Source: Chryseosolibacter histidinae
GTDB lineage: Bacteria; Bacteroidota; Bacteroidia; Cytophagales; Cyclobacteriaceae
Direction of reading: 5' to 3'
Length of the DNA: 64,000 nucleotides
Assembly: GCF_018598225.1 (NCBI RefSeq)
Contig: NZ_JAHESF010000013.1
Coordinates: 124,001 to 188,000, forward strand
A program made the position numbers and the translations under genes. Positions within the stretch are counted from its first letter, which is position 1, and each line of letters opens with the position of its first letter. The notes under the pieces are model-generated. The model had not been told where the DNA came from. It ran no database searches and saw nothing but the letters and a program-made list of their open reading frames with translations. Positions 10,137 to 45,181 of this stretch are shown in pieces.

Positions 10137-11243
10137 CTAGCGAAACACCTCAGTATAGTCTATGGCAAATTTTTTTGGCGATATGCCGAAGCGCTTTTTA
10201 AACGCCCGCGAGAAATACGTTGGACTTGCAAAACCCGACTCGTATGCGATTTCGGAGACCGTTTTGGTATTCGACTTGATCGAGGCGAGCGAATTTTGAA
10301 GCCTGACCTCCTGAATAAACTGATTCGGAGACTTGTCGGTCAGCGATCTTAATTTCCGATTGGTCTGTGATTTACTCAGGCCCAATCCGGCACTCAGCTT
10401 TTCTACATTCAACTCCGGATTATTCCATTCTTTTTCAAAATAATCCATTAACGCTTTTAGAAACTTCTCTGTGTTCGGATCGATCACACCAATTGATTTG
10501 TCAATTGTGGTATTGAAATTTTCACTCTCAAAGAGTTCTTTCACTTCCGATGTTACCGTGATATGGCCATGGCTAATCTCACTCAGGTATTTCGACATCT
10601 TGACCGTGTCTTCAAACAAGCTCGATTTTGTATTTACCGGATCACCTGCACTTAAGCCGATTTTGATTTTAAGATTGAACGCATTTGAGCCGCTATCCAA
10701 CACGGATTGACTTTCCCGGGTGCACACGATTGCGTTGGTAACAGAATCGAACGATGCCAGTATGCTATCGTCTTTCTGCTTTACCGGTCTGCCTTTGTGC
10801 TTCGTAATGATATCGCCTAACGATTGATAAATTCGTTTGATCTCTTTACTCAATTCTTCCCGATCGGTATTTTTTGACACGCCTTTTTCGATTTTGATCG
10901 CCATGAGCGTTCTGAAGGCAGATTCGTCAATAATGTTGATCGGCGTATTCTTTGTGTTCTTCGGATCCTCGATCCTTCCCAAAAACGATTCAACGATGGC
11001 CGGGTCTACTTCTATAATCTCGTGAGGCAGGTCTCCGTGAGCATGTGCATGCATGTCTTCAAGGGCTTTTTTATTCGGTGCGTGGATCAGACAGAAAGCG
11101 GTGTTCCTTTTTTCGTCACACCAATAGGTTATTCCTTTACAACCATACAAGTGTTCGATTTTCACATCTTCCTGGTGCATTCTTGCCACGTGTTCTGCGC
11201 TGACTTCTTCAGGTATGTTGTGGCGATCCATGTAGATTGGCAT
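10137..11243 (-). CDS. DUF4242 / nucleotide-cyclase-like / AraC-HTH fusion regulator
   Basis: 368 residues in three parts. Residues 1-80 match DUF4242, a ferredoxin-like fold that includes nickel-binding SCO4226-type proteins: MPIYMDRHNIPEEVSAEHVA, ITYWCDEKRNTAFCLIHAP, then HAHGDLPHEIIEVD. Residues of about 110-245 resemble a class III adenylate/guanylate cyclase domain (KHKGRPVKQKDDSILASFDS, then LKIKIGLSAGDPVNTKSSLF). The usual first metal-binding motif (D-I-x-x-F-T) is replaced by LMAIKIEKG, so catalysis is doubtful. Residues of about 265-368 are an AraC HTH (SQTNRKLRSLTDKSPNQF, then ISPKKFAIDY). Inference: a ligand- or metal-sensing transcription factor that uses a dead cyclase fold as a sensor. 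The acyl-CoA-dehydrogenase-like gene downstream is a possible target. Confidence 0.85.
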   Translation of the reverse strand: MPIYMDRHNIPEEVSAEHVARMHQEDVKIEHLYGCKGITYWCDEKRNTAFCLIHAPNKKALEDMHAHAHGDLPHEIIEVDPAIVESFLGRIEDPKNTKNTPINIIDESAFRTLMAIKIEKGVSKNTDREELSKEIKRIYQSLGDIITKHKGRPVKQKDDSILASFDSVTNAIVCTRESQSVLDSGSNAFNLKIKIGLSAGDPVNTKSSLFEDTVKMSKYLSEISHGHITVTSEVKELFESENFNTTIDKSIGVIDPNTEKFLKALMDYFEKEWNNPELNVEKLSAGLGLSKSQTNRKLRSLTDKSPNQFIQEVRLQNSLASIKSNTKTVSEIAYESGFASPTYFSRAFKKRFGISPKKFAIDYTEVFR

Positions 11244-11347: not shown

Positions 11348-11704
11348 TCATTTAGTATTGAGGAATAAAAATTGCCGGGGGTCGGGCTGACAAGCTGATA
11401 GGAAGGGCGTCATTTCGTTATTCATCAATCTGGTGCATGCATCGAAAATACTGACCTTCCAGGAAATCGAGGAGGAGGTTAATAGCTGCGGTTCAATGTA
11501 GGTGCTATAGGCGTCGATAAAGGTTTTGATCTGCTTGTGCATTGAACCGTGATAGCTCTCGAAGCATTGTTTCACTGTTTTGCGATGAAAGAGGAGATCC
11601 CACAATAAAGGCGTGCGTGAGCTTATTTTGACAGGAAGAATCTTTACGAAAAGATTTGTAGTATCATGGGGATTGAGATTGTTGCAATCTTCACTGAAGA
11701 TCAT
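11348..11704 (-). CDS. hypothetical protein, island left end
   Basis: 118 residues from an ATG. I recognise no family. The composition is protein-like (FVKILPVKISSRTPLLWDLL, HKQIKTFIDAYSTYIEPQLL), with no signal peptide. It overlaps the ORF upstream (11691-12074) by 14 bp in another frame, so the two may be translationally coupled genes or a single frameshifted gene of about 240 residues. It lies at the left edge of the accessory region. Coding status is uncertain. Confidence 0.35.
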   Translation of the reverse strand: MIFSEDCNNLNPHDTTNLFVKILPVKISSRTPLLWDLLFHRKTVKQCFESYHGSMHKQIKTFIDAYSTYIEPQLLTSSSISWKVSIFDACTRLMNNEMTPFLSACQPDPRQFLFLNTK

Positions 11705-12074
11705 TCAACAAAGAACTTTGACAGACCTCAGTATAAAAAGCTTTTGGATTTTTGCCTAAAGTGCAGCTACTTACGAAAAAATACCCTCTATAAATGAGGT
11801 GATCTACTGCCATTTTCTCAGGCCCCCTGACTCCATAATAAGTCAGGGTTTCCCGGTCCTTAAGCGACCTTTTCAACGCTTCCATTCCTCCCATACCAGT
11901 CACCATATTATTTGATAAGTTATGAGCCACCTGGGTGGCAACAGGGCAAACGTAAGAGATCGAGGAGCCGCCAAACAAAATTTGGACTAATTTATCTGGA
12001 TTTCGGCGGTGCCATATATCAACAGAAACCAGCTTCAACGGCCCAGCTAACATCTTAAACATCCCACCTGGCAA
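11691..12074 (-). CDS. hypothetical protein, island left end
   Basis: 127 residues. Not recognised. The sequence is compatible with a globular protein (MLAGPLKLVSVDIWHRRNP, MEALKRSLKDRETLTYYGV, DHLIYRGYFFVSSC). It lies 120 bp downstream of the large peptidase-like gene on the same strand and overlaps the next ORF by 14 bp. It may be the tail of the island operon or the remains of a larger gene. No function can be proposed. Confidence 0.35.
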   Translation of the reverse strand: MPGGMFKMLAGPLKLVSVDIWHRRNPDKLVQILFGGSSISYVCPVATQVAHNLSNNMVTGMGGMEALKRSLKDRETLTYYGVRGPEKMAVDHLIYRGYFFVSSCTLGKNPKAFYTEVCQSSLLNDLQ

Positions 12075-12196: not shown

Positions 12197-15100
12197 TCAC
12201 TCAGTTGCAGGAACACGGCGTTCAAGGAGTTCCTGGATGACTGCTCTTCGAAACTCTTCTTCCTCTTCAAACTCTGAAGATATATCGCACTCTCGCTCCT
12301 CCGGCGCGAAGTCAGTTTCACCATCGGGGCCTTCGGGGGACGACGCAACCGTGAAATTGAGCACTTGTTGTAGCCGTTGACGAAAGCGGTCCGGTCCCTG
12401 AAGGGACTTGGCAACCTCCGTGAGACATTCGTCTTCCCAGATTTCAAGCGGGTCAACTGTCACAGCGAGTCCGCGTTTTCTTGTCTCTTCCAAATACTCT
12501 TTCGTTGCGCGAAAATCAATAGCTGCCTTCAGTGCGTTCATTATTTCGATCGACGCGTTACTGAGATCGTTAACCTCGGTGCCACGCGCCTGCGGAGGCT
12601 TGGCTGCGATCAACAAAGAATCATTCGCTCGCATAAGAAGCGAGTTTAATCTTCCACGCGCAACGGCAAACCTGGCGTAACCCTTCGCATTATCGCCATC
12701 AAAGGGGTTCGGCGCACGATTTGGCAAAAAGCGCTTATCGAAGTCTGAGATATAGATTGACACAAGCGTCATGATGGCATCCCGTTCCTCCGACATGGCT
12801 TTAGGCATTCCAGCCGTTGACGCCTTCTGCGATTCCAAGTACTTCATAAACGGTTTGAGATCGATGCCAAGGTCGAGCCACACCGCAAGCATTGGTTCGA
12901 GGTCATCCAATTCTGCACGTAGACCCCAGTCTGCCGACCTGCGGTCATACATTTCGCCATAGCCTTGGGCGCCGAACTGAACATGATGATGATCACTGTG
13001 GTTGTGTGGCATAAAGGCAAACTCAGTAATCATGAAGCGCTCCTTCGTGAGACGGCCGGCGCATGTCAGTAAGGCGTTCGCAACAGCGACATCGTCTTTC
13101 GCGGCTTCTGTCAATACTCGAAGTGCGCGTGTATATAACGCCGGTGCACCGAAAATTAACATTCTCATACCGGATAGAAGTAGCGATATTGTGGCAATGA
13201 GACCTCTTTGCACCCCCGCTTCAGTGTGCGCAAGCGGAAGATCCTGAATACGGCGCTCGATGCTTTCCCATTCGCCCGTTGCATTAAGCTCGGGCTCGTA
13301 CCCTTTCATTAGTGCGTCGCGGCTACCAGTTCCTGCGAAGCCTTTATTATCAATGTTCTTCACAAGTACGTGCCGAACTATTGCTTCAACGCGAGCGATT
13401 GTCGGCTGTACGAGTACGTCCGTGATAAGGCCACGAAAGATGAGCTGCCTATTTTCCCCCTTAAAGGCACCTGTTTCCATTGATGAATGCCGAAGAATAA
13501 GAGGATTTGCTACAACCCGACGCGCCATCTTTTCTCCAAGTGTTGTAATCACCACCAGGTTGTAAAGCACGCGGGCTTTTGCTGAGTCACCGTCTCGATG
13601 TAGCTGTACTGCAAGCCGGGTGACTGCGGTGCGCCCGGCGACCGAAAGAGGTAGCGGAAATGGCTTGTCCTTCAACTCTTTCATGACGCGTTGATATTTG
13701 ACTACGGCGTCGCGATACCCCGACTGCACCTCCTGCAATGTCATTCTCATAGCCTTCCTGCCCTCGCCAGGTGCATGAGTTATTGTGGACGCGGAAAGTG
13801 AATCGGCCCTATTTGAGCGTGCAAGAATGCGGAGGAGGCCAGGCCAGTTTATACTTATGGCTCCCTCAAGATGCCTCGTTACATTTTCATCGATCGGTGG
13901 CCACCTCTGGCTGTCGGCGCCCATTTGGAGATCAAAAGTGAGTCCATCGCGATGAGTGATGTGGGGAAGTTTTCGCCCTCCCCACGGAAAACACCCTGCG
14001 ACCAAACGAAGCGGTGAGACAAGACCCGAGTTTGTGCGGGCGTTGATTGCGTCCGAGTAACGGGATCGATCTAAGTTTAATCCCATCACTTCGGCCTCCG
14101 TCAACGTTTCTTTCTTAGCTATCTCCAATGTAGAGGTCTGTAGCAGTGGCACCCGTTCAGTAAGGGTTGCTCGCGACCGAGCCGGATCATCTGACTGGTC
14201 CCAGTGGATTTTGATTTCCTTTGCTTGAGTTTTGTTATAAGTGTCGTCGACCAGTTTGAGCAGAGGAGCAGGCAGTCCCAGGTCTGTAACAGCCAGTTTT
14301 GAGATTGATGCGGCAACAAAAAGTTTGAGCTGGGCGGTATATCGCGAATGTTTAGAAATCGAAAACTTGTCACCATTCTCGTCCCAAGCATCGTTGGTAA
14401 TCGATGGCAATTTATGGGTTTCGGGATACCTTGGCCAATGTAGCACGAGCTCGCCGGCAGTGATCGCAACGTCGGCGCGCCGCACTGACGTCCCTGTTTC
14501 CCCCTTCCTCGCTGGCGATTCAAGTGAAGACAGACTGTTTCGTAAAATAAATGGCGTCTTTACGCCCTCCATTGCAAGCGTCCAAAGTTGCGCCCAAGCT
14601 TCATCCACCGTAAGGGCTCCCCATATTGGCATCAATTCGATCCGCAACGACCCACTTTCATCCTGTTTCTGTTTCGCGTGCCGTGGAGCATTCAGATAGG
14701 ACGAATGGTTGGGAGCAGGAATTGTCATCCCCGTGATAGCCTCAAAGATCGCAACGGCAACCACACTACTAAGCGAATAGTGAACTTCGTCGAGAGGCAG
14801 TGAGCATCTTACAACGAGATGCTCGATATACAGCCACCACACCTCAACATAGGCACAGTATTGAAATACGGGCCAAAGACCGACGTTGTCGAAAACTTCC
14901 CGGACCGGGTCGTTGAGTCCCAGCACCAGTAGGTCGAGTGCAAGCAACTTGCGGCGCTCATGTGCCTTTTGCGCAGCGCTGCCCACATCAGTCACATATA
15001 AAGATCGTAGCTGATTGATTTCACGATACGCTTTTAGGAATGAATCGACCGGCCCATTCCCAGTCAGTTCTTTCGAGTTTGGAGCCAACAATCCGCGTGC

Positions 15101-15685
15101 GCGTTTCTGTGTAGGTGTATTCTGGGGAGCTGACAAGGCGCGAACGATTGGATCAATTCGAAGAGCTCGGTTCCATTTGTCCAACCATGTCCACGTTTCT
15201 GGTTCCCGTCCTAGCTCGAATTTGTAGGATGCTTCGAGGCTTGGATACCCGGTAAGTAGAAAGTCTTTCGTCGGAACGGGCGCGTTCCATTTCTCAGGGG
15301 CAAGAAACTCACGTAGTAGTGTAACGTATTTCTCGCTAGGCGATCCTGAAAGGAATTTCGGGCTGCTTGAAGATCCGTTTACTAGTTTCAGCAGCACGCT
15401 AGCCCCAACGTCGACGAACGGAGTTTTGGGATCCTCGCTTGAGATAATCGCTTTGAAGAGGGCTAGATTCCGTTTGTATGCGGCGACTGACATTTGACGA
15501 TGAAGATCCGAAGGACCAGGATCATCTTTAAGCCACGTGTATCCGTGGACAAAGGTTAGAGCCATATCGAGCGGCGGGCCGGATGGCGGTACTGGACGTA
15601 GCATTGTAGGAGCTTGGAGCCATCCGGGCGGGGCTTCCACCAGTAGCGCAGACCTGCGATCGGAACTTCGTGTGCGTGGCAGCAT
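12197..15685 (-). CDS. very large protein with a LAS-type (M15/M74-like) zinc peptidase signature
   Basis: 1,162 residues. No signal peptide. Most of the protein is helical and unrecognised. Residues of about 565-590 read LVAGCFPWGGRKLPHITHRD then GLTFDL; H578 and D585 form the HX6D zinc motif of LAS enzymes (M15 D-Ala-D-Ala peptidases, M74 murein endopeptidases). The second half of that fold appears at about 855-905: ISLLLSGMRMLIFG, then HNHSDHHHVQF (894-904), with the D-H-x-H motif. The roughly 310-residue gap between the motifs is far longer than usual, so a large insertion lies inside the peptidase fold. The C-terminus is strongly acidic (EFEEEEEF). It is the last gene of a three-ORF operon, 18 bp after the previous stop. 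A peptidoglycan-cleaving role is inferred from motifs only. Confidence 0.7.
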   Translation of the reverse strand: MLPRTRSSDRRSALLVEAPPGWLQAPTMLRPVPPSGPPLDMALTFVHGYTWLKDDPGPSDLHRQMSVAAYKRNLALFKAIISSEDPKTPFVDVGASVLLKLVNGSSSSPKFLSGSPSEKYVTLLREFLAPEKWNAPVPTKDFLLTGYPSLEASYKFELGREPETWTWLDKWNRALRIDPIVRALSAPQNTPTQKRARGLLAPNSKELTGNGPVDSFLKAYREINQLRSLYVTDVGSAAQKAHERRKLLALDLLVLGLNDPVREVFDNVGLWPVFQYCAYVEVWWLYIEHLVVRCSLPLDEVHYSLSSVVAVAIFEAITGMTIPAPNHSSYLNAPRHAKQKQDESGSLRIELMPIWGALTVDEAWAQLWTLAMEGVKTPFILRNSLSSLESPARKGETGTSVRRADVAITAGELVLHWPRYPETHKLPSITNDAWDENGDKFSISKHSRYTAQLKLFVAASISKLAVTDLGLPAPLLKLVDDTYNKTQAKEIKIHWDQSDDPARSRATLTERVPLLQTSTLEIAKKETLTEAEVMGLNLDRSRYSDAINARTNSGLVSPLRLVAGCFPWGGRKLPHITHRDGLTFDLQMGADSQRWPPIDENVTRHLEGAISINWPGLLRILARSNRADSLSASTITHAPGEGRKAMRMTLQEVQSGYRDAVVKYQRVMKELKDKPFPLPLSVAGRTAVTRLAVQLHRDGDSAKARVLYNLVVITTLGEKMARRVVANPLILRHSSMETGAFKGENRQLIFRGLITDVLVQPTIARVEAIVRHVLVKNIDNKGFAGTGSRDALMKGYEPELNATGEWESIERRIQDLPLAHTEAGVQRGLIATISLLLSGMRMLIFGAPALYTRALRVLTEAAKDDVAVANALLTCAGRLTKERFMITEFAFMPHNHSDHHHVQFGAQGYGEMYDRRSADWGLRAELDDLEPMLAVWLDLGIDLKPFMKYLESQKASTAGMPKAMSEERDAIMTLVSIYISDFDKRFLPNRAPNPFDGDNAKGYARFAVARGRLNSLLMRANDSLLIAAKPPQARGTEVNDLSNASIEIMNALKAAIDFRATKEYLEETRKRGLAVTVDPLEIWEDECLTEVAKSLQGPDRFRQRLQQVLNFTVASSPEGPDGETDFAPEERECDISSEFEEEEEFRRAVIQELLERRVPATE

Positions 15686-15703
15686 GATTAGTGGATTTCC
15701 GGT

Positions 15704-16864
15704 CTACTTATCCTTCTTTCGTTTGCTATTCTCTTCAAGCAGCTGCCGCTGTTTAGCCAAAAGGTCATCAACGACCTTCAGTCGGCTCGCTGATCGATCG
15801 AGTACCTTCAGTTGACTGTCATGGTTGTCTTTTAAATTTTGTTCTATCCTTGCTTGATGCTCGCCCTCGAGTCGTTTTATCTCGCTAAGTGTGGCCACGT
15901 GAGCCACCACATTTTCGGCAACGGCAGGGCCAGCGGTCAACGTCCGCGCAATTTGCGCCACCGACGCCTCCAGGCCGGCGTCAGGTGCCACAGTAGACGA
16001 TGAGCACTCTGAAGCAGATAGCCCACCCAGTTTGTATTCTTGCCCGCCAAGGATCACAAGCGGCGTGGGTACATACTCGATCCAGGAATCGCCGATTGGT
16101 ACGGCTCCCAGATAGTAGTCAACTTCCACACCAACCCGACCGGTGCCCGTCGTAAACGTTCCCTGGGTGGGGCTGCTTATGCTCTTGACGATGTACTGCG
16201 TCCCCTCAATCATGACCTCACGACCAACGTCAAGCTTTTCGTCCAGTACCCAGGTGAGTCGTTCAAACGCAATCTCTGGTATGATGGTAAAGTCAGCGTC
16301 GTTGAGCCGAAGACTTCCGGCACCAAGCCGGTACTGGTCATTGCGTTCGCACAATATTTCTCGAAGGAGATTAGCAGAAATATCTGGGAGTTCCCCCGCA
16401 AAATTTGCCTCATCAGCATCTGCCTCCAGTTTTGCAAAGAATGTCTCCTGGTTCGCGAGTGGCGTATCAAGCAACTGAAGGACCTTCGCCTCGCTTCCCG
16501 GAGTCACGGGAAGCATAACTCGCGCTACTCCTGCAGAAAGGAATTGGCGGTGTTTCTCATCTATTGTTCGAAGCTCCATGCGCGGAGACCAGGTTTCTTG
16601 TTCAGCGAACTCATATCCTGCATAGAATGTAAGCATGTCGTGCCACTCGAAAGCCCCATCGAAGAACGCGATCTTCGTCTGGCTCCTCCGGCTGCAGCGA
16701 CCCGGTTGGTAGAACGTGTAAACGTCGTCATCAATACCGACTTCTTCCACAAGGGAAAAGTTTGGCGCACGGCCGGTAAGCATTTTTATGATTGCACGTT
16801 GCAACTCTACACGTTCCTTGTCGCGAAGGCGTGAAGGTGGTTCTTCAGGGGAAATGCCAGACAT
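15704..16864 (-). CDS. C-terminal part of a large island protein (likely frameshifted from the gene upstream)
   Basis: 386 residues from the ATG at 16864, but the frame is open back to 16921. The upstream codons read RLSNQLSEAEARLEEK, a good coiled coil that continues into this ORF. The segment KIAFFDGAFEWHDMLTFYAG and the following SAGVARVMLPVTPGSEAKVL match a signature I recall from very large uncharacterised bacterial proteins (FF-x-x-AFEW, then AGxARVxxPVxPG), where this part follows directly on sequence like the preceding ORF. The C-terminus is a coiled coil (KDNHDSQLKVLDRSASRLKV). It overlaps the upstream ORF by 58 bp. It is most probably not an independent gene; the recollected family could not be checked here. 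Confidence 0.65.
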   Translation of the reverse strand: MSGISPEEPPSRLRDKERVELQRAIIKMLTGRAPNFSLVEEVGIDDDVYTFYQPGRCSRRSQTKIAFFDGAFEWHDMLTFYAGYEFAEQETWSPRMELRTIDEKHRQFLSAGVARVMLPVTPGSEAKVLQLLDTPLANQETFFAKLEADADEANFAGELPDISANLLREILCERNDQYRLGAGSLRLNDADFTIIPEIAFERLTWVLDEKLDVGREVMIEGTQYIVKSISSPTQGTFTTGTGRVGVEVDYYLGAVPIGDSWIEYVPTPLVILGGQEYKLGGLSASECSSSTVAPDAGLEASVAQIARTLTAGPAVAENVVAHVATLSEIKRLEGEHQARIEQNLKDNHDSQLKVLDRSASRLKVVDDLLAKQRQLLEENSKRKKDK

Positions 16865-19119
16865 CTTCTCCTCGAGACGAGCCTCGGCTTCCGATAGCTG
16901 GTTAGATAGCCTTCGCGAAGTTTAAGCCAGGTCTCCATCCTCCATTTGCGAATTGCATCATTCGTGGGGCGCGCGAGTATTGACAGGTTAACCGCCCCCT
17001 TGAATTTTCCAGTGGAGTTATTGGCAGTCTTCATCGTCGCGTTAACCACAATACCTGTTTCTGAAACCTGCGCCCCAGGCTCCCAAAGATTGTTCCATGT
17101 ACCAGAAGTACTGCTATACAAGGTTCGTCCATTGGCTGAAACATACACTTGCCCACCTGATGGAAACCAGACCGATGACATGTAGTCGTAGGCGCGGTAG
17201 CCCTCTGGTACTTTCACGATCTGCTGGGCGGATCCGTAGAAATCTGATATATCGAGTGCAAGTCCAACATCGAAGCTGGTAGGGCGCGGAGGTGGCACGA
17301 TTCCACGTGCATCGTATTGCGACTGGAGCATCATATAGTGAGTACCTGCGACTGAGCTCGCTTCGGAAGAGGCGAGATCACGTTCGAAGGTGATCTGATC
17401 TGGTGTCAATGTAAACGCGCTCAAACCATGCGTAGCCGCCTTGCGGGACAGCAATGTTCGGCCTGGCTCTGGCACAATAAACTCAAGGAATAGCCGCGCT
17501 CCATACTGCCTGACTTGCACCCTAAATTTCTTTTCGACAAAGCGATAGACGGAGCTGTTGTCAGCAACCGACTCGAATCGATGTTCATTTCGGTCGAACG
17601 TTCTTTCCCGAAATGTTTTCGTAAGTTTATCGCGAACACTGTTGCGTATCTCTGACGCCGCCTTCGACACAGTCTCGCGCGCACTGGTCACGGTCGATGC
17701 TGCCGACTCAGACCGTGACATTCCAAACGTTGCACCGAGTGAAGCTTGTATTGATGTTACACCATAGTTGGCTGACATGGACACATTCGCGTTGATACCG
17801 ATTTCCATCGAGTTCTGCGATGCAACGGTACTCTGGAGCTCAAAACGCTCTGACGTCTGGTGGTTCTCGGAACGCGACTCTTCAGTGAGCCGTTCGGATT
17901 CTTCCACAACGATCTCCTCGGTCTCACGCTCATGAATTCGAACACGGCTTTCTCCGCCCCGGGCGTTCTCGATATACGATATCTCACGCGCCACATTACA
18001 AAGCCACTCTTCGTCTACAACATAAAGGTCACCGATGCCTATTGACGCCACGCACGGCCATTCAAGCTTCGGTGGCCAAGGTTTGCCTTTGTCTTTGCTC
18101 TTATCCTTTTCCTTTGAACTGGAAAGGCATTTGACTTCAGCAGCTATAGTACTCAGCAATTGGCCAACGGTCCTGCCACTCGCAGCAAGAATGACCTGCA
18201 GTAGTTCCTCACTGCCCGGAGGTGCTTCTTCCCTCCAGCGTCTCGCCACTTCATCGATCAACACGGCAAACTCACGTTCCACTGGTTCCATTCTTCTCAC
18301 GGCAAATTTCCCGGAACTTTCGCTGCGGTTGAATATTGAGTTTTTCGGTCCGACATCGTCCGACGTACTCTCCGTCATTCTGTAGCGATTGCTTTCTTCC
18401 TTCAGAATTTCTGTCAGCTCCTGAAGTGCCCTTATCAGCATGGCTATTGCCCGCTCTGGGCCCACACTGTCGGCAAACAATTTCTTGAGTAAGCCGGCTG
18501 TTATACACGGGCCATCGGATTTCTCCTCTTTAAACCAGAACTCTTCGGGAAACCGAATACCGTCAAACTCGAGCTTTGCATCCCCTTTCTCCACAGGACG
18601 CCGGATCAGTAAGGCATCACCAATGAGGCTACGGAGTTCATTCGAGACGCCTTTCTTGCTCGCCGGTCTCTGCGCCAGCCAAAGTATTGCAGCCTTCCTG
18701 ATTTTCGCAATGTACTCTGAGCCGTTAATCCCCTGTACTCGCCGTGAGTTCATGTAACTGAGAAGGTCCGTAACGACGTCGCCTTGTCTGTCTGAGGCGA
18801 CGATAGTTGCACCTTGAAGTTTACGCGCTTCCCCCTGAATAGGGCCTCTTACAGAAACGTCTGACAGACGTAGGAGTGCAATCGCGATAGCGTCGATCTT
18901 GCTGGCAACGAAGCTTTTGTTCCCGCCGAATCGTTGAGCGATGTACCCCAGCAGGTGGTCGTGGCTCGGGCGCTTCCAATCTGGCTTGCCGAATTTACTC
19001 AACTCTTCCCGGACCGAGGCTATTTCAGCATCCGGCAGTGGTGTGTCTGTGGTCGGAGCAGATACAAAAGCTTGTCTTGCCGACCTGAATGAAAGGGTTT
19101 TAAAAATCGTAGTTGGCAT
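16807..19119 (-). CDS. N-terminal part of a large island protein of unknown function
   Basis: 770 residues as read, of which the last 30 or so look out of frame (LTSYRKPRLVSRRRCLAFPL). The N-terminal 350 residues are helical. Residues of about 370-540 hold a long charged coil (RIHERETEEIVVEESERLTE), then a Gly/Ser/Asn-rich amphipathic stretch (INANVSMSANYGVTSIQASL), then another coil, a layout that would suit a membrane-inserting hairpin. Residues of about 540-740 look like a beta-sandwich (KVPEGYRAYDYMSSVWFPSG). No signal peptide. It is the first gene of the operon 19119-12197. Gene order and sequence argue that it continues into the next frame near 16900-16905 to make one protein of about 1,140 residues. 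Confidence 0.65.
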   Translation of the reverse strand: MPTTIFKTLSFRSARQAFVSAPTTDTPLPDAEIASVREELSKFGKPDWKRPSHDHLLGYIAQRFGGNKSFVASKIDAIAIALLRLSDVSVRGPIQGEARKLQGATIVASDRQGDVVTDLLSYMNSRRVQGINGSEYIAKIRKAAILWLAQRPASKKGVSNELRSLIGDALLIRRPVEKGDAKLEFDGIRFPEEFWFKEEKSDGPCITAGLLKKLFADSVGPERAIAMLIRALQELTEILKEESNRYRMTESTSDDVGPKNSIFNRSESSGKFAVRRMEPVEREFAVLIDEVARRWREEAPPGSEELLQVILAASGRTVGQLLSTIAAEVKCLSSSKEKDKSKDKGKPWPPKLEWPCVASIGIGDLYVVDEEWLCNVAREISYIENARGGESRVRIHERETEEIVVEESERLTEESRSENHQTSERFELQSTVASQNSMEIGINANVSMSANYGVTSIQASLGATFGMSRSESAASTVTSARETVSKAASEIRNSVRDKLTKTFRERTFDRNEHRFESVADNSSVYRFVEKKFRVQVRQYGARLFLEFIVPEPGRTLLSRKAATHGLSAFTLTPDQITFERDLASSEASSVAGTHYMMLQSQYDARGIVPPPRPTSFDVGLALDISDFYGSAQQIVKVPEGYRAYDYMSSVWFPSGGQVYVSANGRTLYSSTSGTWNNLWEPGAQVSETGIVVNATMKTANNSTGKFKGAVNLSILARPTNDAIRKWRMETWLKLREGYLTSYRKPRLVSRRRCLAFPLKNHLHAFATRNV

Positions 19120-19426: not shown

Positions 19427-19741
19427 ATGGAACGTTTCAAGAAAATTGAAAAGAAATTGATTCTGGCGAACGGCGTGGAGGCGACGTTCAGTTTGTTGCA
19501 AAGTCACAGGACTTCGTTTGACAGTTATTCCTTACTGGACTGTCCAAGATCAAGCCTGTACACGATTTACGGCGATCCAAACGAAGGAACAGAAGATTTC
19601 AAAGGAGTGACCGGAGATGGCGCTTCCCGTATCTTCGCCAAGATGGCGGACTGTAGAGCTTGCTTTTATATTGACGATGGAACAGACGACGCTTTTTATG
19701 AGGCTCGCGATAACTCTATTAACGACTTGGACCGCCTTTAA
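19427..19741 (+). CDS. small hypothetical protein
   Basis: 104 residues from an ATG. The composition is protein-like and acidic (FKKIEKKLILANGVEATFSL, then ACFYIDDGTDDAFYEARDNS). I recognise no family, signal peptide or transmembrane helix. The gene is isolated between the large-protein operon and the recombinase remnant, and its last bases overlap a minus-strand ORF. It could be an orphan cargo gene of the island. Coding status is moderately likely. Confidence 0.4.
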   Translation: MERFKKIEKKLILANGVEATFSLLQSHRTSFDSYSLLDCPRSSLYTIYGDPNEGTEDFKGVTGDGASRIFAKMADCRACFYIDDGTDDAFYEARDNSINDLDRL

Positions 19742-20012: not shown

Positions 20013-21013
20013 TTGACTAAGTCAACAAACTCTATCCTCTCCCGCCATTTGTCCGAAAGCCGTTTGTTGGCGTCATCACCACCGGGCATCTCGGCCAGCG
20101 ACGAAGCTGAATTTATACGGGAAGCGTTCGAGTTGGTTGCAACCGGAAATTATATGCAAGACGAGATAAGGTTTAAGTTAAGAATGAAAGGTTTCGAATG
20201 TAGCAAGAGTTCTTTCAGCAGGATCTTTTCCAATAGGACTTACATCGGCAAGGTTTGGGTTTCTGGTGAAGGACAACCGGATTATTATGTCGATGGCCGC
20301 CACGAGGCAATTGTTAGCGAGGCGGTCTTCTTCCAGGTTCAAGATGTTCTTTTCTGGAAGGAGGCCAGCAAGCACAACTAAACAATTGTGTCGGGAAGAA
20401 TTCCCTTTGAGGGGTTTTCTTCAGTGTCCCAAGTGTGGAAAAACTCTTACAGGAAGTTCGGCTTTAAGCAGACAAAGCGACCTTATTACTACTATCACTG
20501 TACAAAGGGCTTTAAGGAAATTCACTCCATAACGAAAGTTCATGCTTCATTCGACAGGTTGCTGCAAGAGATCGTCGCTAAAAAAGAAGCCCTTGACCTA
20601 TATGAAGAGATATTTAAGCGATTGTACGCACGATCAGGCAAGGACCGCGAGGTGGAGTCAAAAAAGCTGTTATCGGCTATCGAATCGAATAAAGCGCGTC
20701 TATCCACTTCGTTGAAAATGAGATTGGACGGTGGATTGAGCAATCAGAGTACTATCAAATAAAATCTCAACTTGACGAAGAGAACTCAACTTTAGTTGGA
20801 GAGCGTGCATCATTACAGATAATGGGTGAGAACTACAATGAAAAGGGTCAGCGACACGTTGAACCTCCTGAGGGACACGGAAGATTACAAAGATGCAAGC
20901 GTTGAGCTAAAACATTAACTCATTGGTTTGAACTTTCCTGAAAAGTTGGTTTTTCGGATGAAACAATTCAAACCACCTGAATGAACGAATTGCTGTCTCT
21001 TTATGCTGGATAA
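20013..21013 (+). pseudogene. decayed serine recombinase (C-terminal half)
   Basis: The region can be read as a large serine recombinase only by changing frame several times. First comes a recombinase domain (DEAEFIREAFELVATGNYMQ, then NRTYIGKVWV, then GRHEAIVSEAVFFQVQDVL) ending at a stop at 20381. Next is the zinc ribbon in another frame (FPLRGFLQCPKCGKTLTGS), then back to the first frame for RPYYYYHCTKGF and the coiled coil up to about 20740. Another frame gives EQSEYYQIKSQLDEENSTL, followed by LRDTEDYKDASVELKH, LIGLNFPEKLVF and MNELLSLYAG, the usual C-terminal end. The N-terminal catalytic resolvase domain is missing. At least three shifts make it inactive. It marks past mobility of the island. 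Confidence 0.85.
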
Positions 21014-21073: not shown

Positions 21074-21086
21074 GTGCACTCGCAGG
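21074..21086. repeat. 13-bp copy of the tRNA-Arg 3' end (possible attachment-site remnant)
   Basis: GTGCACTCGCAGG is identical to 21246-21258, which covers the 3' end of tRNA-Arg plus one base. The match almost continues (ATT against GATT). Duplicated tRNA 3' ends are typical attachment sites of integrating elements. Here the two copies are only 172 bp apart, so this may be one end of an older insertion. Confidence 0.5.
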
Positions 21087-21121
21087 ATTGCCGGTGGCGA
21101 TCCCCGCTAAGCAGAGGTCCA

Positions 21122-21240: not shown

Positions 21241-21246
21241 CACTCG

Positions 21247-21320
21247 TGCACTCGCAGGGATTCAAACCCCGAACCTTCTGATCCGTAGTCAGATGCTCTA
21301 TTCAGTTGAGCTACGAGTGC
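21247..21320 (-). tRNA. tRNA-Arg(ACG)
   Basis: A 74-nt cloverleaf on the minus strand. The acceptor arms are GCACTCG and CGAGTGC (7 bp), the D stem GCTC/GAGC, the anticodon stem TCTGA/TCAGA with loop CTACGGA (anticodon ACG, read as ICG after deamination), a variable loop of 5, and the T arm CGGGG-TTTGAAT-CCCTG. The discriminator base is A; CCA is not encoded. Its 3' end is duplicated at 21074-21086, which suggests use as an integration site. Confidence 0.95.
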
Positions 21321-35955: not shown

Positions 35956-38900
35956 ATGAAAAGCAAAAAAAGAATTTCTGACCTTGAGTCATGTCCTGGC
36001 CGCGATGCCATTGCCATTGTTGGCCTCTCGTGCCGTTTCCCCCAGGGCCACACCCTTGCCGAATTCTGGGAGCTGCTGCGCAACGGTAGGGATACCATCA
36101 CCGAAATAAAAGATCAGCGGTGGGATCATGACGCTTATTATCATCCGGATGCCACGGTTGCCGATAAGACACAACAACGCCATGCATCGCTGCTCGACAA
36201 CATCCACGACTTTGATCCGCTCTTCTTCGGCATCTCTCCTGCCGAAGCGTATGAAATGAGTCCTTCACAAAAACTGATGCTCGAGCTCGTATGGGAAGCG
36301 CTTGAAAATGCCTCCATCGGCATCGACCAGGCGAAAGGAGGAAGAACAGGTGTTTACATTGGCAACATCTGGACGGACTTCGAGCGCTACCGGAAAATGA
36401 AAAACGCTGCGGCCACATCGCACTCGGCACTGGGGCAATCGGCGAACATCATCGCCAACAGGGTTTCCTTCAAATATGGTTTTACCGGGCCCAGCCTCGT
36501 GGTGGACACGGGTTGTTCCGCTTCGCTTGTAGCGCTTCACCTGGCGTGTCAGGCGCTGCGCGACGGAAGCATCGATATGGCCGTGGTGGGCGGCGTCAAC
36601 CACATTCTCGATCCCGATCAGTACATTCTGCTTTCGAAATTTGGTGGGTTGTCTTCCACTGGCAAGTGTCACACCTTCAGTCGCCATGCCGATGGTTTTG
36701 TGCGCGGCGAAGGCGGGGGCGTGGTGTTGCTGAAGAGGCTCCCGGATGCTGAAAAAAAAGGTGAGAAGATCTGGGCATTGGTGAGGGGTACCGCCATGAA
36801 CAACAACGGCTACAACGTCAATCTTCCGGCAACCAGCGTGGAGGGTCAGAAAAGCGTGCTGGCGGATGCTTACCGTTTCAGCAGCATCGCACCGAAAGAT
36901 GTTCACTATGTGGAAGCGCACGGCACGGGCACAAGGCTGGGTGACCCCACAGAGGCAACTGCGTTGGGAGAATTCTTCTGCAAAGGAAAACGCAAGCAGG
37001 CGCTTCACATCGGATCTGTAAAAACCAATATAGGTCACCTCGAAGCCGCCGCTGGCATTGCCGGGCTCATCAAAGTAGTGCTTGCCATGCAGCACAGAAC
37101 GTTGCCACCAAGCCTCAACTGTGACGAATATAATCCGGGCATCGACTTCGAAGCACTCAGGCTACAGGTGCAACATACACCCGGCCCCTGGCCAGCAAAG
37201 AAAGGCGAGACGCTCAAGGCGGGCATCAACTCCTTTGGATGGGGCGGCACCAATGCCCACACCGTGGTGGAAGAATACAGGCAACCATCGTATACACCTG
37301 CTGCCAAGCATCAAACGGGAATGTACTGCCTGCCTGTTTCCGCCCAAACGGAAGGTGCGCTGAAGGCATATGTGAAACGATATGCAGACATGCTCCGCGC
37401 CATCCCGGAACAAGCCGTAAACGACTTTTGCGTAGCCGCAGCATTAAGAAAACCCTCGCTGAGTCACCGGGCATTTTTTTCAGCAAAAACAAAAGAAGAA
37501 CTGCTGAATGCACTGGAGGGTTTTGTACCCGATGCTGACAGTTCGACAGTGAACAGCATACCGTTACAGCATCACAGGGTGGTGATGGTATTTCCCGGAC
37601 AGGGTGCCCAATGGATCGGTATGGGAAGGGACCTGCTCGCCAAAGAGCCTGTTTTCAGGCAAGCGATCGAAGCTTGTGACAACGCCTTCAAACCGCATAC
37701 AGGCTGGTCGTTAGTGAGGCTGCTCACAACGACGTCAGAGGAAAGCCGCCTGAGCGAGATCGATGTAATACAACCAGCATTGTGTGCCATCCAGGTGGCG
37801 CTGGCCAGGCTGTGGATGTCGTGGGGCATACAACCACAGGCGCTCGTGGGGCACAGCATGGGTGAGGTGGCCGCCGCCTGCATTTCAGGAGCCATTGATC
37901 TTCACCAGGCAGCCCTCATCATCTGCACGCGCAGCAGGCTGATGAAAACCGTCAGCGGAAAAGGTGGCACCATGGCGGTTACGGAGCTTTCGTATGAAAG
38001 GGCGGAAGCATTGCTCATCCATTTTCCAGGATTGTCTATCGCGGCCAGCAACAGCCCGAAATCAACCGTGCTGGCAGGTGATCAACAGTCCATCAGTGAA
38101 ATATTGCAAACGCTGGAACGCCAGAGCCTTTTCTGCCGCCAGGTGAATGTTGATGTTGCCTCCCACAGCAGACAAATGGATCCGTTGAAAAAAGATCTCC
38201 GCAAAGCCCTGACGGGTATCAAACCCAACGCTACGGCTATTCCTTTTTATTCAACGGTGAGAAACCGCAAAGTGGAAGGCAAAGCGCTGAATGCCGGCTA
38301 CTGGGTAGACAACCTCAGGAACCCGGTGCATTTCTCAAGCGTGGTCAAACAACTGATGCAGGATGAGCATACGATCTTTATCGAAGTGAGCCCGCACCCG
38401 CTGTTGGTGGTCTCGCTGAACGAATGCGCCGCCCATGAGGGACGAAATATTTTTTCCGTTGCCACACTGTTTCGCGACAAGCCGGAGCAGGATTCGATGT
38501 ACAAAAACCTGGGTGAGCTCTTCAGGCACGGCTTCAATATTCCCTGGTCAACGTTCTACAACACAGACAACGCGCCCCACCTGCAACTACCCGCCTACCC
38601 TTTTCAGCGCGAACGTTTCGAGCTCAAGGGCCGCGCCGGGAAGCAGGTAACCGATGCTAAGACCGGTCGCAGATACCCGCTGCTCGGGAAGTCGATCTGG
38701 GTGGCAACACAAGCGAATACCTATTTCAAGGAAACGGTGCTGAGCCTGGAGACCTATCCTTACCTTGCCGACCACCTGGTAAACAACGACATTGTAGTGC
38801 CCGGCGCTGTTTACGCAGAAATGATGCTGGAAGCTGCAGGCGAGATACAGGAAGGCGGGATCTCCGTTCTGTCGAACCTGAGGTTTGTGAAACCATTGAT

Positions 38901-41900
38901 ACTTGCATCCGAAGAAGCAGCCACTGTTCAGCTGAAAATGGTTCGCAACAACGGATCGTTCTCCTGCCAATGTTTTCAGAAAACAGCAGACGACGCAGCA
39001 CGCATAACCTGGCAGCTACTGGCCGAAGGTGAGCTGAAGATCGTATCGGGTTTGGGCCATGATGATATGGCTGATACCGGTGCGGAAACCCACGACCTTG
39101 CCATGAGCGGACAAACCTACTATGACCTGCTGAGGTCGCTGGGCCTCGCGTACGGCCCTTATTTCCAGGGGCTGAAAGAATTGCGCACAGGATCACATCC
39201 ATCAACCGTGAGCTTCAGCCTTGCGGCGCATGCCCACGTGCAACGATCAGCGGAGCGTTATAAGATCCACCCTACGCTGCTCGATACCTGTCTTCAACCT
39301 TTGTTCTTTAAAGTGCTCGAAGGCATTTCAGCAGATCAAAGCCGCTCCACGTTCCTTACCGGCATCCGGGAGCTGCGACTACTGAAAGCGTTCGACCCCT
39401 CTGAAAAAGTTACCGGAACGGTGAGGCTCCACAACCTGAAACGGGATCACGGTCATGGCACCACGCAGGTTGAAGCTGACATTACGGTTTACACTTCTGC
39501 CGGCGATCCATTGCTGATATTAAGCGGTGTCCAGGGAAAAGTGCTCGAAAGCGGCGCACTGAAAACGAACAAGAAAAAATTAAAGGACTGGCTTTATCAG
39601 GTAAACTGGAAAAAATTGTCACACACACCGGGCACAACATCTCCGGTTGAGACACGGGGCACCTGGCTCGTGCTGGGAGACGCGCTCGGAACAAGCAACA
39701 TACTGGTGAATAAAATGAACAAGCGCGGTTTCCATTGCATCCATGCAACACCGGGTACCGCTTTCACAAAACACTCCCCTGTTAGCTATACCGCAGACTT
39801 CGGCAACGAAGCAGATCACAGGGCACTGCTTGTTGATGTCTTCCGACGCGAACCCGTTATTGAAGGCATTATTCACTGCACCAGTATCAATAATGAATGG
39901 CAGCGAGACGACATCACTGCTGACGTTCTGGAGTCATCGCAGGTTGACGGCAGCATGAGCCTTCTCTGTATGTACCGGCAGCTCGCCGCGCTGACCATTG
40001 CCCGGGCGCCGAAGCTGATCGTGATCACCAATGGCGTGGAGGCTGTACGCGATCAGGATGTGCCTCATCCCCTGCACAGTCCGTTGCGGGGTATGGCAAA
40101 AGTGCTGGGCAACGAAGCCACCCAGTATGGCGTGCGTTGTTTCGATCTCAGCACCTGTCCGGGCGAAGCGGAGCTTGATCTCGTGGTGGACGTCATACAA
40201 GCGCCACCGGAAGGCGAGGATGAGCTTGCCTTCCGCGGCAGCGAGCTATACACATCTCGTCTGCACAAAGGTGTTGACGCAGAGCTCACACCTTCTTCAA
40301 AACAGTTCTCTTCCTGGGGCACCTACCTCGTTACCGGTTTCGGAGGAATAGGACTGGACTTTATAACCTGGATGGCAGCACGCGGTGCACGTCATTTTGC
40401 ACTGGTAAATCGCAGCGGAAAGGCCGGCGATGCAGCCGACATAAAACTTGCCAGGTTAAGACACATCGGATGCAACATTGAAGTGTTCGCAGCAGATGTT
40501 GCCAGCTATGATGCGCTGAAAAATGTGCTCCACCACATTGAAGACCTCATGCCTCCGTTGGCGGGTGTGGTTCATGCAGCGGGTGTGATCCATGCCAATA
40601 CGTTAGCTAACCTGACACCAGCGGAACTGTCGGGTATTCTTAGTCCGAAGATGAAGGGCGCCTGGAACCTCCACCTGCTCACCCGCCATCTGACGCTGGA
40701 TTGTTTCATCCTGTTCTCTTCGGCTTCCACACTGATCGGTCTCAGCGGTCAGGGAAGCTACGTAGCCGCCAATCGTTTTCTCGATACGCTGGCACATTAC
40801 AGAAGGTCAATGGATTTGCCTGCCATGGCTGTGAACTGGGGTGTGATCAGCGATGCAGGTATGGTGGCCCATGACAGTGCGCTGGAACGTTACGCCAGGG
40901 CTGAAGGATTTGAGCCCGTGCCTATGGCCAGGGCCCTGGAGGCGTTCGATGCCATTTACCGGGGTGGCTATGCTCAGGTCGGCGTGGCGAAGCTGAATGC
41001 CAACATCATGGCTGGGTATTACGCTATGCTGAAGGAACGGAATTACTTCAGGGGCTTGCTGGAGCGTGAGCGGGAAAATACACTGGCAGATACAACTTTC
41101 ATGGATCAGCTTGTATCGCTCAATCCGCAGGAACAGATCACGATGCTGGAGGTGCTGGTGATCCATGAGCTGGCCGCGGTCATTAAAACACCTGCCGCAC
41201 GCATCAATGCTGCCATGACGTTCAAATCGTTGGGCGTTGACTCGATCATGGCGGTACAGCTCCGGAACGTGTTTGAAAAGATCCTCAACCTGAAACTGCC
41301 GGTGGGTATGTTCTGGACGCATCCTTCGATCAGGGCCTATGCGGCGTTTCTGCAACAAGGCCTTGCCGATCAGGCTTCAGCCATGCCGTTAGATCGCCGT
41401 CAGGTCAGCACATCAGATTGGTTTGTGATCGCCCATCCGAACCCGAATGCTTCTTTCCGGATCTTCCTGTTCCATGATGCGGGTGGCGACACCTGCCTGT
41501 ACAACGGGTGGGATAAACTGCTCGGCGCCGAAGCGGAGGTAATTGCCGTAGAATTACCAGGCCGCGGCAAACGCATCAACAAGAATGCTTATGAGAACCT
41601 CGATCACCTGATCGCAGACCTGAAGCCCGCCCTGGCTCCTTTGCTTGACAAACCTTATGCATTCTTCGGTCACAGCATGGGTGCGCTGATCGCCTTTGAA
41701 ATGGCCCGTTCCATCCGCAGAAGCGGCATGGATCAGCCTTCACGGATCTTTATCTCATCGGCACCGGCATTGAGTACTTACTCGCGCCATGATATCGATT
41801 ATGACTCGCTTGAAAAAGATCTGTTCAGAAGCAAAGCAGCGGATTCACACCTGAAGCAATCACTTCAGAAGTTATTGAAAGACGACCTGCGCCTGCTGAA

Positions 41901-42165
41901 ACATTACCGCTATGTACCGGAAGCGCCGTTGACGGTACCGCTGGTGGTGGTGCACGGCAGCGACGATCCACGTGTATCACAAACCCAAGCCGAGCGGTGG
42001 GAAATGGAGACCAATGCAGACATCGAGGTGATCGCAAGACCGGGAGGCCACCGGTACATCGAGCACGATAGCAAATTCCTGACGGACCTCATCCGGAAAG
42101 AAATGGATGCTGTGAAAAATGACACCTTTTCGTTGCATTTTGAGACGGAGGCTACCTCTGTATAA
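35956..42165 (+). CDS. single-module type I polyketide synthase, KS-AT-DH-KR-ACP-TE
   Basis: 2,069 residues. KS (about 17-445): active-site Cys187 in DTGCSASL, His322 (HGTGT), His361 (NIGHLEAAAG). AT (about 542-870): Ser634 in GHSMGE, specificity segment VASH near 735, not decisive between malonyl and methylmalonyl. DH (about 905-1195): His940 and Asp1110 (HPTLLDTCLQ). KR with its structural half (about 1210-1680): cofactor motif TGFGGIG, catalytic Tyr1602 and Asn1606. ACP: Ser1763 (GVDSIMAVQLRN). TE (about 1840-2040): Ser1907 in GHSMGAL and His2032, resembling type II thioesterases. There is no ER domain. No phosphopantetheinyl transferase or loader lies near; the single module suggests iterative use. 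The product is unknown. Confidence 0.95.
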   Translation: MKSKKRISDLESCPGRDAIAIVGLSCRFPQGHTLAEFWELLRNGRDTITEIKDQRWDHDAYYHPDATVADKTQQRHASLLDNIHDFDPLFFGISPAEAYEMSPSQKLMLELVWEALENASIGIDQAKGGRTGVYIGNIWTDFERYRKMKNAAATSHSALGQSANIIANRVSFKYGFTGPSLVVDTGCSASLVALHLACQALRDGSIDMAVVGGVNHILDPDQYILLSKFGGLSSTGKCHTFSRHADGFVRGEGGGVVLLKRLPDAEKKGEKIWALVRGTAMNNNGYNVNLPATSVEGQKSVLADAYRFSSIAPKDVHYVEAHGTGTRLGDPTEATALGEFFCKGKRKQALHIGSVKTNIGHLEAAAGIAGLIKVVLAMQHRTLPPSLNCDEYNPGIDFEALRLQVQHTPGPWPAKKGETLKAGINSFGWGGTNAHTVVEEYRQPSYTPAAKHQTGMYCLPVSAQTEGALKAYVKRYADMLRAIPEQAVNDFCVAAALRKPSLSHRAFFSAKTKEELLNALEGFVPDADSSTVNSIPLQHHRVVMVFPGQGAQWIGMGRDLLAKEPVFRQAIEACDNAFKPHTGWSLVRLLTTTSEESRLSEIDVIQPALCAIQVALARLWMSWGIQPQALVGHSMGEVAAACISGAIDLHQAALIICTRSRLMKTVSGKGGTMAVTELSYERAEALLIHFPGLSIAASNSPKSTVLAGDQQSISEILQTLERQSLFCRQVNVDVASHSRQMDPLKKDLRKALTGIKPNATAIPFYSTVRNRKVEGKALNAGYWVDNLRNPVHFSSVVKQLMQDEHTIFIEVSPHPLLVVSLNECAAHEGRNIFSVATLFRDKPEQDSMYKNLGELFRHGFNIPWSTFYNTDNAPHLQLPAYPFQRERFELKGRAGKQVTDAKTGRRYPLLGKSIWVATQANTYFKETVLSLETYPYLADHLVNNDIVVPGAVYAEMMLEAAGEIQEGGISVLSNLRFVKPLILASEEAATVQLKMVRNNGSFSCQCFQKTADDAARITWQLLAEGELKIVSGLGHDDMADTGAETHDLAMSGQTYYDLLRSLGLAYGPYFQGLKELRTGSHPSTVSFSLAAHAHVQRSAERYKIHPTLLDTCLQPLFFKVLEGISADQSRSTFLTGIRELRLLKAFDPSEKVTGTVRLHNLKRDHGHGTTQVEADITVYTSAGDPLLILSGVQGKVLESGALKTNKKKLKDWLYQVNWKKLSHTPGTTSPVETRGTWLVLGDALGTSNILVNKMNKRGFHCIHATPGTAFTKHSPVSYTADFGNEADHRALLVDVFRREPVIEGIIHCTSINNEWQRDDITADVLESSQVDGSMSLLCMYRQLAALTIARAPKLIVITNGVEAVRDQDVPHPLHSPLRGMAKVLGNEATQYGVRCFDLSTCPGEAELDLVVDVIQAPPEGEDELAFRGSELYTSRLHKGVDAELTPSSKQFSSWGTYLVTGFGGIGLDFITWMAARGARHFALVNRSGKAGDAADIKLARLRHIGCNIEVFAADVASYDALKNVLHHIEDLMPPLAGVVHAAGVIHANTLANLTPAELSGILSPKMKGAWNLHLLTRHLTLDCFILFSSASTLIGLSGQGSYVAANRFLDTLAHYRRSMDLPAMAVNWGVISDAGMVAHDSALERYARAEGFEPVPMARALEAFDAIYRGGYAQVGVAKLNANIMAGYYAMLKERNYFRGLLERERENTLADTTFMDQLVSLNPQEQITMLEVLVIHELAAVIKTPAARINAAMTFKSLGVDSIMAVQLRNVFEKILNLKLPVGMFWTHPSIRAYAAFLQQGLADQASAMPLDRRQVSTSDWFVIAHPNPNASFRIFLFHDAGGDTCLYNGWDKLLGAEAEVIAVELPGRGKRINKNAYENLDHLIADLKPALAPLLDKPYAFFGHSMGALIAFEMARSIRRSGMDQPSRIFISSAPALSTYSRHDIDYDSLEKDLFRSKAADSHLKQSLQKLLKDDLRLLKHYRYVPEAPLTVPLVVVHGSDDPRVSQTQAERWEMETNADIEVIARPGGHRYIEHDSKFLTDLIRKEMDAVKNDTFSLHFETEATSV

Positions 42166-44567: not shown

Positions 44568-45181
44568 AACTTTCCTGCCGCAAACTGTATGACAACACAA
44601 AAGTACCTAGTGTGAATATAAAAAAATGTCCGTCCCTTGTCCATTTTTACATCAAAATAGCCATAAACAAAAAATTAAAATACGCGATTTACGGCAAAAG
44701 CTTGCATAAGCGCTTTCTATGCGGAAGCAGCCATACGTAACCAATCTCCCACAGCGGTTGCGGTGTTCGAAAATAAAAACGCTTCACAACCTCATCACAT
44801 TTGCAGGAAAGCGTCCACGGGCTGGCTACCTTTCCCAAAAAAAGAATGCTACCACATTTGGTCTTAACGATGACAAAGGGGGAGCTGATAATCCCAGGAC
44901 GGTGAACGCAATGCGCACAACGGTGGTGCTGGTGCCCGCCGGCTTTTGCATGAAAAATCGGCGGTCAACTTGTTTTTCCCAACAGCTGTTCAGCGATTTT
45001 ATCTGTTAACAAATAGGCTCATGGTTGGTAACTTCACTGCGATTCTATACCTTAGTCGTGCTGTTGATCCTGACAAAGAGTAAACCCCACTTTTTGTAGT
45101 CCGTTTTCTGAGGATTTTGAGTTACTGATGCGATCTGCAATTCTTAAAAGGTAACGTGACGACCCAATTCGTCCGCTGGTT
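44568..45181. other. 614-bp divergent intergenic region
   Basis: Between the WGR gene (minus) and the AraC gene (plus). It is AT-rich near 44600-44700. A 96-residue plus-strand ORF at 44719 has no protein-like composition. No convincing repeats or sites were found; promoters of both genes must lie here. Confidence 0.5.

Follow-up and report, generated by a model that had tools for sequence, protein, structure and literature searches.

M74 peptidases, pore-forming toxins and polymorphic toxin systems are among the described systems that come closest to the locus analyzed here. M74 domains span about 230 residues and the M74 enzyme MepA is a zinc-dependent D,D-endopeptidase (PMC6403190); amphipathic hairpins build the barrels of α-hemolysin-like toxins, and one also occurs in the helical toxin NheA (PMC3769298); Tox-MPTase4 and Het-C domains occur in exported polymorphic toxins (PMC3482391); and Trypco1 is a domain described in nucleoside triphosphate (NTP)-dependent conflict systems (PMC7159879). 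We have compared these systems with a two-gene unit found in a 64,000-nucleotide stretch of the genome of Chryseosolibacter histidinae (assembly GCF_018598225.1, contig NZ_JAHESF010000013.1, positions 124,001 to 188,000 of the forward strand), hereafter the window, in which a gene for a large protein, here named A, is followed by a gene for a 1,162-residue protein, here named B. The two genes form a real operon. Our reading of it, which is tentative and which we place somewhat short of an even chance, is that of a modular carrier-plus-effector unit, with A as carrier or pore protein and B as wall-cutting cargo, located next to a tRNA-Arg gene and possibly inactive in this genome. What the analysis shows is the existence of an A family, the variable and often toxin-like genes that come after A in that family, the pairing of A with B in two distant genomes, and the MepA-like residues in B.

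The operon comprises three consecutive open reading frames (ORFs) on the minus strand, in the order A' (770 residues, 16807..19119), A'' (386 residues, 15704..16864) and B (12197..15685). The initial annotation had described the first product as a single protein of roughly 1,140 residues; we find instead that it is divided between A' and A'', which are read in different frames and overlap by 58 nucleotides (16807..16864, minus strand), at a site where relatives have a single ORF. In respect to B, its length and its start 18 bp after the preceding ORF (A'' ends at 15704 and B starts at 15685) agree with what had been annotated. The G+C content of the operon is about 52%, versus about 44–48% on both flanks. 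A' and B both lack a hydrophobic stretch at the N-terminus, in accordance with the earlier statement that signal peptides are absent: the best 19-residue Kyte-Doolittle means are 0.31 for A' and 0.54 for B, as evaluated over windows starting within the first 34 residues and with no dedicated signal-peptide program applied. Hits of the operon proteins to the Pfam families KH_11 and TraM, which fall below the curated cut-offs, and to PHROGs (E > 0.05) were dismissed as chance.

A is a member of a large family for which neither Pfam nor NCBIfam nor PADLOC has a model. A profile scan of 84,980 species genomes, in which a 21-sequence alignment served as query and only places fitting one ten-residue pattern were considered, yielded at least 387 relatives among 588 candidates, and the best 80 of these at least 387 were kept. 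The relatives include records from Pseudomonadota, Actinomycetota, Bacillota, Chloroflexota, Bacteroidota and Verrucomicrobia, as well as one archaeal metagenome-assembled genome (MAG) of Nitrosocosmicus. When 295 further genomes of the phylum were examined, 10 proved to have a relative of A'. They also occur on haloarchaeal, cyanobacterial, rhizobial and actinobacterial plasmids, 14 plasmid records being matched by A' from about residue 356 onwards at 23–30% identity. The loci fetched for comparison numbered 105 (L018-L122); six were without an A ORF by ORF picking, leaving 99, and removal of three duplicates left 96. The family consensus is made of an N-terminal motif resembling LFRFVSLRSP, a core with the elements GE.AHIEN, YRWVDK and YG.R...EF..PEP, and a C-terminal block. 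The N-terminal motif takes the form IFKTLSFRSA in A' (residues 5-14; 19078..19107, minus strand), and the corresponding pattern, which was set by eye, is found in 65 of 85 A ORFs of at least 700 residues versus 12 of 1,072 other ORFs. Eight loci have a shorter A and, in front of it, a gene from a single cluster (about 350–410 residues), which we suspect of supplying the N-terminal part. When 51 sequences, consisting of A proteins and seven genes preceding short A proteins, were searched, one Pfam family was hit in two members and one NCBIfam family in one member, with a best E-value of 1e-4 in each case, and these hits were taken as chance. Among the papers searched, none was found to contain short family A peptide strings, and none of the listed papers on polymorphic toxins and secretion was recognized as a description of the family.

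The division of A in the window separates two conserved parts of the family. The core profile matches A' at residues 357-561 (17437..18051, minus strand; E 2e-51), and the profile of the C-terminal block matches A'' (E 6e-25), which phmmer also pairs with the C-terminal region of A homologues. Among the relatives, the core is present in 97 ORFs, the C-terminal block in 98, and both in 95; the only other loci, among those examined, in which the two parts lie in separate ORFs are one from a Legionella genome (L081) and one from an archaeal MAG (L110). Since both halves share one ORF in 95 of the 97 core-bearing cases, the A of the window is either frameshifted, misassembled or truly made as two chains. 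It looks frameshifted, and because of the frame change A may be inactive in this genome.

The genes that follow A are variable and often toxin-like. The next ORF of at least 100 residues is on the same strand as A in 92 of the 96 loci; domains were scanned in 88 of these 92 downstream genes, four Legionella loci being left out, and in 120 of 126 upstream or second-downstream genes, where those omitted were again from Legionella loci. The resulting tallies cover 25 of 32 families for the downstream genes and 25 of 82 for the upstream or second-downstream ones, and one protein can match several families. Directly downstream of A we count patatin (8), Trypco1 (6), M23 (4), PAD (2) and Tox-MPTase4 (2), whereas amidase_3, ADP-ribosylating toxin, ART, Het-C, PhoD, GH16, amine oxidase, SIR2-like and laminin-G-like domains occur once each. 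The upstream or second-downstream genes contribute patatin (5), Het-C (3), Tox-MPTase4 (2), PoNi immunity (1) and muramidase (1), and no secretion machine is found among the families so tallied. Indeed, the suggestion of an effector role made in the initial annotation is in keeping with the neighborhood of the homologues, as the A family often adjoins toxin- or effector-like genes.

This variability is also evident when related loci are compared. Within 259 pairs of loci whose A proteins are at least 40% identical, the next gene is without similarity in 204, a figure inflated by small ORFs between A and the effector, and has partial similarity in 9. One similarity cluster of 30 proteins supplies the neighbor in 23 loci, those named being from flavobacteria and relatives, and the 20 members that were compared end quite differently. 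An M15-like peptidase lies near A in six loci (L022, L032, L050, L116, L121 and L122), one of the proteins being annotated as M15 and the others being similar to it. We also note a cluster of patatin-like proteins in six loci, five of them in common with the M15-like set, and a further group of six loci (L044, L058, L071, L073, L088 and L091) in which a short A is followed by a small protein of one cluster, probably the carrier of the Trypco1 domain; in L073 the gene next to this small protein has a Het-C domain. Taken at the level of the family, and not of the window alone, the arrangement resembles polymorphic toxin systems (PMC3482391) in that A is a conserved partner of exchangeable toxin-like genes, in the neighbor cluster with differing C-termini and in the occasional immunity gene near A. 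It differs from them in that the exchange takes place between separate genes behind A, and in that searches with Pfam and NCBIfam reveal no domain of known secretory or trafficking function in A or B.

For the second member of the operon, the scan of 84,980 species genomes having been made with A, the only relative of B detected is one among the ORFs of the fetched A loci. It is a protein of 1,069 residues (L102:2837-6046) from a Cloacimonadota MAG (contig of 6,325 bases), and its gene comes immediately behind that of an A homologue. Further relatives were absent from plasmids (with B and the relative as queries), from 97 other related genomes and, using a two-row alignment as query, from a further 394 genomes of the phylum; among 18 genomes that have A-bearing loci, one was positive, which is the relative's own genome. 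The two proteins are identical at 231 of 877 aligned residues, and the best-conserved stretch of their alignment is WGGRK.PH.THR.G, with 11 of 15 residues identical, followed by D585. This stretch falls in the first motif of B, GGRKLPHITHRDGLTFD (residues 569-585; 13931..13981, minus strand), which includes H578 and D585. The second motif, H896..H899.H901-V.F (residues 896-904; 12974..13000, minus strand), has its three histidines H896, H899 and H901 kept in the relative as H872, H875 and H877. The initial annotation had located H578, D585, D898, H899 and H901 correctly, and its proposal of zinc residues gains from the fact that both motifs are conserved in the sole relative found.

MepA of E. 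coli, whose zinc is held by H113, D120 and H211, has GGRFNGGHASHQTGLDVD at 103-120 and HRAHMHVRL at 206-214, and both motifs of B match these. The segment THRDGLTFD of B (577-585), likewise its counterpart in the relative, and SHQTGLDVD of MepA fit [ST]H..G...D, and the motifs of B as a whole fit the MepA patterns GGR...H.[ST]H..G...D and H..H.HV.[FL], with one residue fewer between GGR and H in B. When the 1,708 other ORFs from the fetched loci were examined, the first full pattern turned up in one, that of B's relative alone, and the second in four, the relative included; as the patterns are this rare, the match of B is more than chance. A piecewise hhalign comparison with M74 is weak but places the motifs of B in the MepA register, with E-values of 0.005 and 0.06 in a one-pair search. 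These results indicate that B carries a MepA-like (M74) signature of a putative zinc site. B is much larger than MepA (1,162 versus 274 residues) and, as said above, has no signal peptide in evidence. The initial annotation had assigned the context of the motifs to M15/M74 (LAS-type) peptidases, and of this the M74-like zinc signature stands, while M15 is not the nearest family, the second motif having the M74 form H..H.H. In fact, B has in common with M15 peptidases its H(x6)D motif, and the M15-like proteins beside flavobacterial A in the six loci named above also have H(x6)D but no H..H.H, so that M15 was set aside as the best home for B and MepA was found to fit better. A search of B against solved structures gave one hit, to a flavin-binding regulator (E 0.18), which was judged to be chance. 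A hydrophobic stretch is present in B between the motifs, at residues 829-847 (19-residue mean 1.85).

A different kind of feature is seen in the core of A', where residues 437-470 (17710..17811, minus strand) make up a predicted amphipathic hairpin. Taken as a family average, the alternation between hydrophobic and polar residues peaks at arm 1 of this hairpin and the residues just before it. On the Kyte-Doolittle scale, 51 of 68 rows have an arm 1 (residues 437-453 of A') that exceeds shuffles at p<0.05, the 68 rows being related and hence not independent. Charged, helical-looking segments lie on both sides. This alternation between charged, helical-looking segments is the point of likeness to pore-forming toxins of the α-hemolysin type and to NheA (PMC3769298), and since such hairpins form barrels in α-hemolysin-like toxins, a pore is possible for A, whose hairpin would be compatible with pore formation. 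A differs from these toxins in that neither A' nor the A family profile shows a sequence relation to any solved structure.

The carrier-plus-effector reading may be put together as follows. A, a large protein without an obvious signal peptide, would assemble at a membrane, where its hairpin would insert and either form or guide a pore; the changing neighbor protein would be the cargo that A carries or admits; and B, as an M74-like peptidase with bound zinc, would be carried by A to act outside the producer and cut the peptidoglycan cross-links of a target cell. The interpretation given in the initial annotation is partly supported by our analysis, and roles of the operon in cell-wall degradation, export or defense are ones that we infer. 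A more far-reaching proposal, which we regard as rather doubtful, is that family A represents a kind of toxin-delivery protein, present in Bacteria and Archaea and not yet described, which would provide its own membrane pore and pass the enzyme encoded by the adjacent gene into a target cell without a phage-tail-like machine; phospholipase, deiminase, ADP-ribosyltransferase and wall peptidase would be enzymes so delivered, and the cargo of the window version would be a giant M74-like peptidase. To our knowledge, such a cargo would be the first M74-type site in so large a protein. If A is a carrier, one delivery principle would link hundreds of unannotated loci across many phyla, among them archaeal ones, new toxins could be found by reading the gene after A, and 'hypothetical protein' pairs encoded by plasmids of rhizobia, actinobacteria, cyanobacteria and haloarchaea would become testable effector systems.

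A number of results weigh against the carrier-plus-effector reading. A', A'' and B have no naming match in Pfam, PHROGs, NCBIfam or PADLOC, where only weak hits were obtained. Arm 2 of the hairpin (454-470) exceeds shuffles in only 17 of the 68 rows, and in A' itself it does not stand out. Many neighbors of A are ordinary, for example PPK2 and Mur ligase downstream, the counts of toxin domains after A stand without a random-neighbor control, and the M23 count of four probably comes from as many near-identical loci of Micromonospora. Moreover, a Pfam scan of the flanking ORFs recognized no immunity gene beside the window operon, which is a further difference from polymorphic toxin systems. As for B, the M15/M74 placement of the initial annotation finds no counterpart in Pfam, neither family being matched by B (for PF03411 at E up to 1) nor PF03411 by the relative at 0.001, and the hhalign probabilities are low (6.9% and 0.9%). 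The motifs are 314 residues apart in B and 301 in the relative versus 89 in MepA, so that a long insertion must loop out if the motifs of B form one site. Among six fetched M74 domains, the second pattern is present in five and the full first pattern in one, in addition to E. coli MepA, and GGR is thus not a general mark of M74.

Some of these results would be accounted for if B were not a LAS-type or M74 peptidase and its two histidine motifs were unrelated or bound something else. Pfam, PHROGs, NCBIfam and PADLOC are blank on B and its profile has no match among solved structures, and to this come the distance between the motifs, the weak hhalign support and a family of two known members; on the other hand, the first motif is the most conserved stretch of the alignment, the three histidines of the second are kept at the overall identity given above, and both motifs follow MepA, so that we consider this explanation distinctly unlikely. 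A more serious contender, compatible with the other readings, is that a laterally acquired unit has decayed in this genome and has no present function, which we find quite conceivable, although on balance we lean against it. It would explain why A is split into two frames when nearly all core-bearing relatives have both halves together, and why the neighboring recombinase, described below, is broken. However, A' and A'' are open over the whole conserved part and B is open for 1,162 codons, and the Legionella and archaeal loci mentioned above also have the parts of A in separate ORFs; the open frames of A', A'' and B suggest that the decay is recent, that the assembly is in error or that A is expressed as two chains.

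Two other explanations concern the place of action. A could work inside the producer, in defense or self-lysis, by sensing an intruder or being cleaved and opening the producer's inner membrane, with B cutting the cell's own wall in the style of abortive infection or of a holin-endolysin cassette, with which the operon would share the logic of a membrane partner and a peptidoglycan peptidase. The lack of a visible signal peptide in A' and B, the SIR2-like domain found once downstream and the presence of Trypco1, known from NTP-dependent conflict systems (PMC7159879), after A in 6 of 88 scanned loci are what such a role would lead one to expect. It is made unlikely by the absence of PADLOC matches for A', A'' and B (E up to 1) and for the 51 A-family sequences, by the GH16, PhoD and amine oxidase cargo, which is unsuited to suicide, and by Tox-MPTase4 and Het-C, which occur in exported polymorphic toxins (PMC3482391); in contrast to holin-endolysin cassettes, moreover, 50,697 phage records hold no relative of A' and none of B's relative, and three A relatives are present in IMG/VR. 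Alternatively, A could be a surface or matrix protein of an extracellular feeding module, its neighbor being an enzyme for polymers or prey remains and no toxin being delivered. The same GH16, PhoD phosphatase and amine oxidase domains, together with the laminin-G-like one, would be at home in such a module, whereas the ART, Het-C, PAD and Tox-MPTase4 domains and the cluster with differing C-termini look toxin-like and no secretion signal is visible in A' or B, which renders this explanation very unlikely.

The genomic setting bears on the origin of the operon. As the initial annotation had pointed out, a tRNA gene and a recombinase remnant are adjacent: a broken serine recombinase on the plus strand (20013..20762), made of three overlapping ORFs of which the first matches PF07508 at 20013 (E 6e-10) and the other two are without Pfam match, sits between the operon and the gene for tRNA-Arg(acg) (21246..21320, minus strand). 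Coming from the right, the window shares its gene order with two congeners as far as the 3' end of this tRNA, where the agreement stops; the left end of the insertion was not located. A sequence close to the tRNA 3' end recurs at 21075-21089 and, in weaker form, at 48573, but an attachment repeat at the tRNA was rejected as not significant, as 26 of 100 shuffles give as many matches. A tree built from 68 sequences and 292 columns of the A core groups the window A with an actinobacterial A (Microbispora, support 0.949) and not with Bacteroidota, and the A beside the other B comes eleventh by distance from the window A; the branches are long, for which reason the tree is a hint only, and what it hints at is possible lateral transfer and exchange of cargo. 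A phage origin was also discarded, there being no phage relatives of A' or of B's relative in the phage records, which were queried with these two proteins and not with B, and no B in viral contigs.

The genome to which the window belongs measures 8.04 Mb, versus about 5.8 Mb in both congeners, and this larger size suggests much acquired DNA. Short ORFs without Pfam match flank the operon at 11348-12074 (minus strand) and 19427-19741 (plus strand) and may be immunity genes or debris. Farther out, the ORF at 10137-11243 (minus strand) joins an N-terminal SCO4226-like nickel-responsive domain to a C-terminal AraC-type DNA-binding domain, and that at 43179-44600 (minus strand) joins a WGR domain to tetratricopeptide repeats. 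Finally, 35956-42165 (plus strand) encodes a single polyketide synthase of 2,069 residues, with ketosynthase, acyltransferase, dehydratase, ketoreductase, carrier and thioesterase domains.

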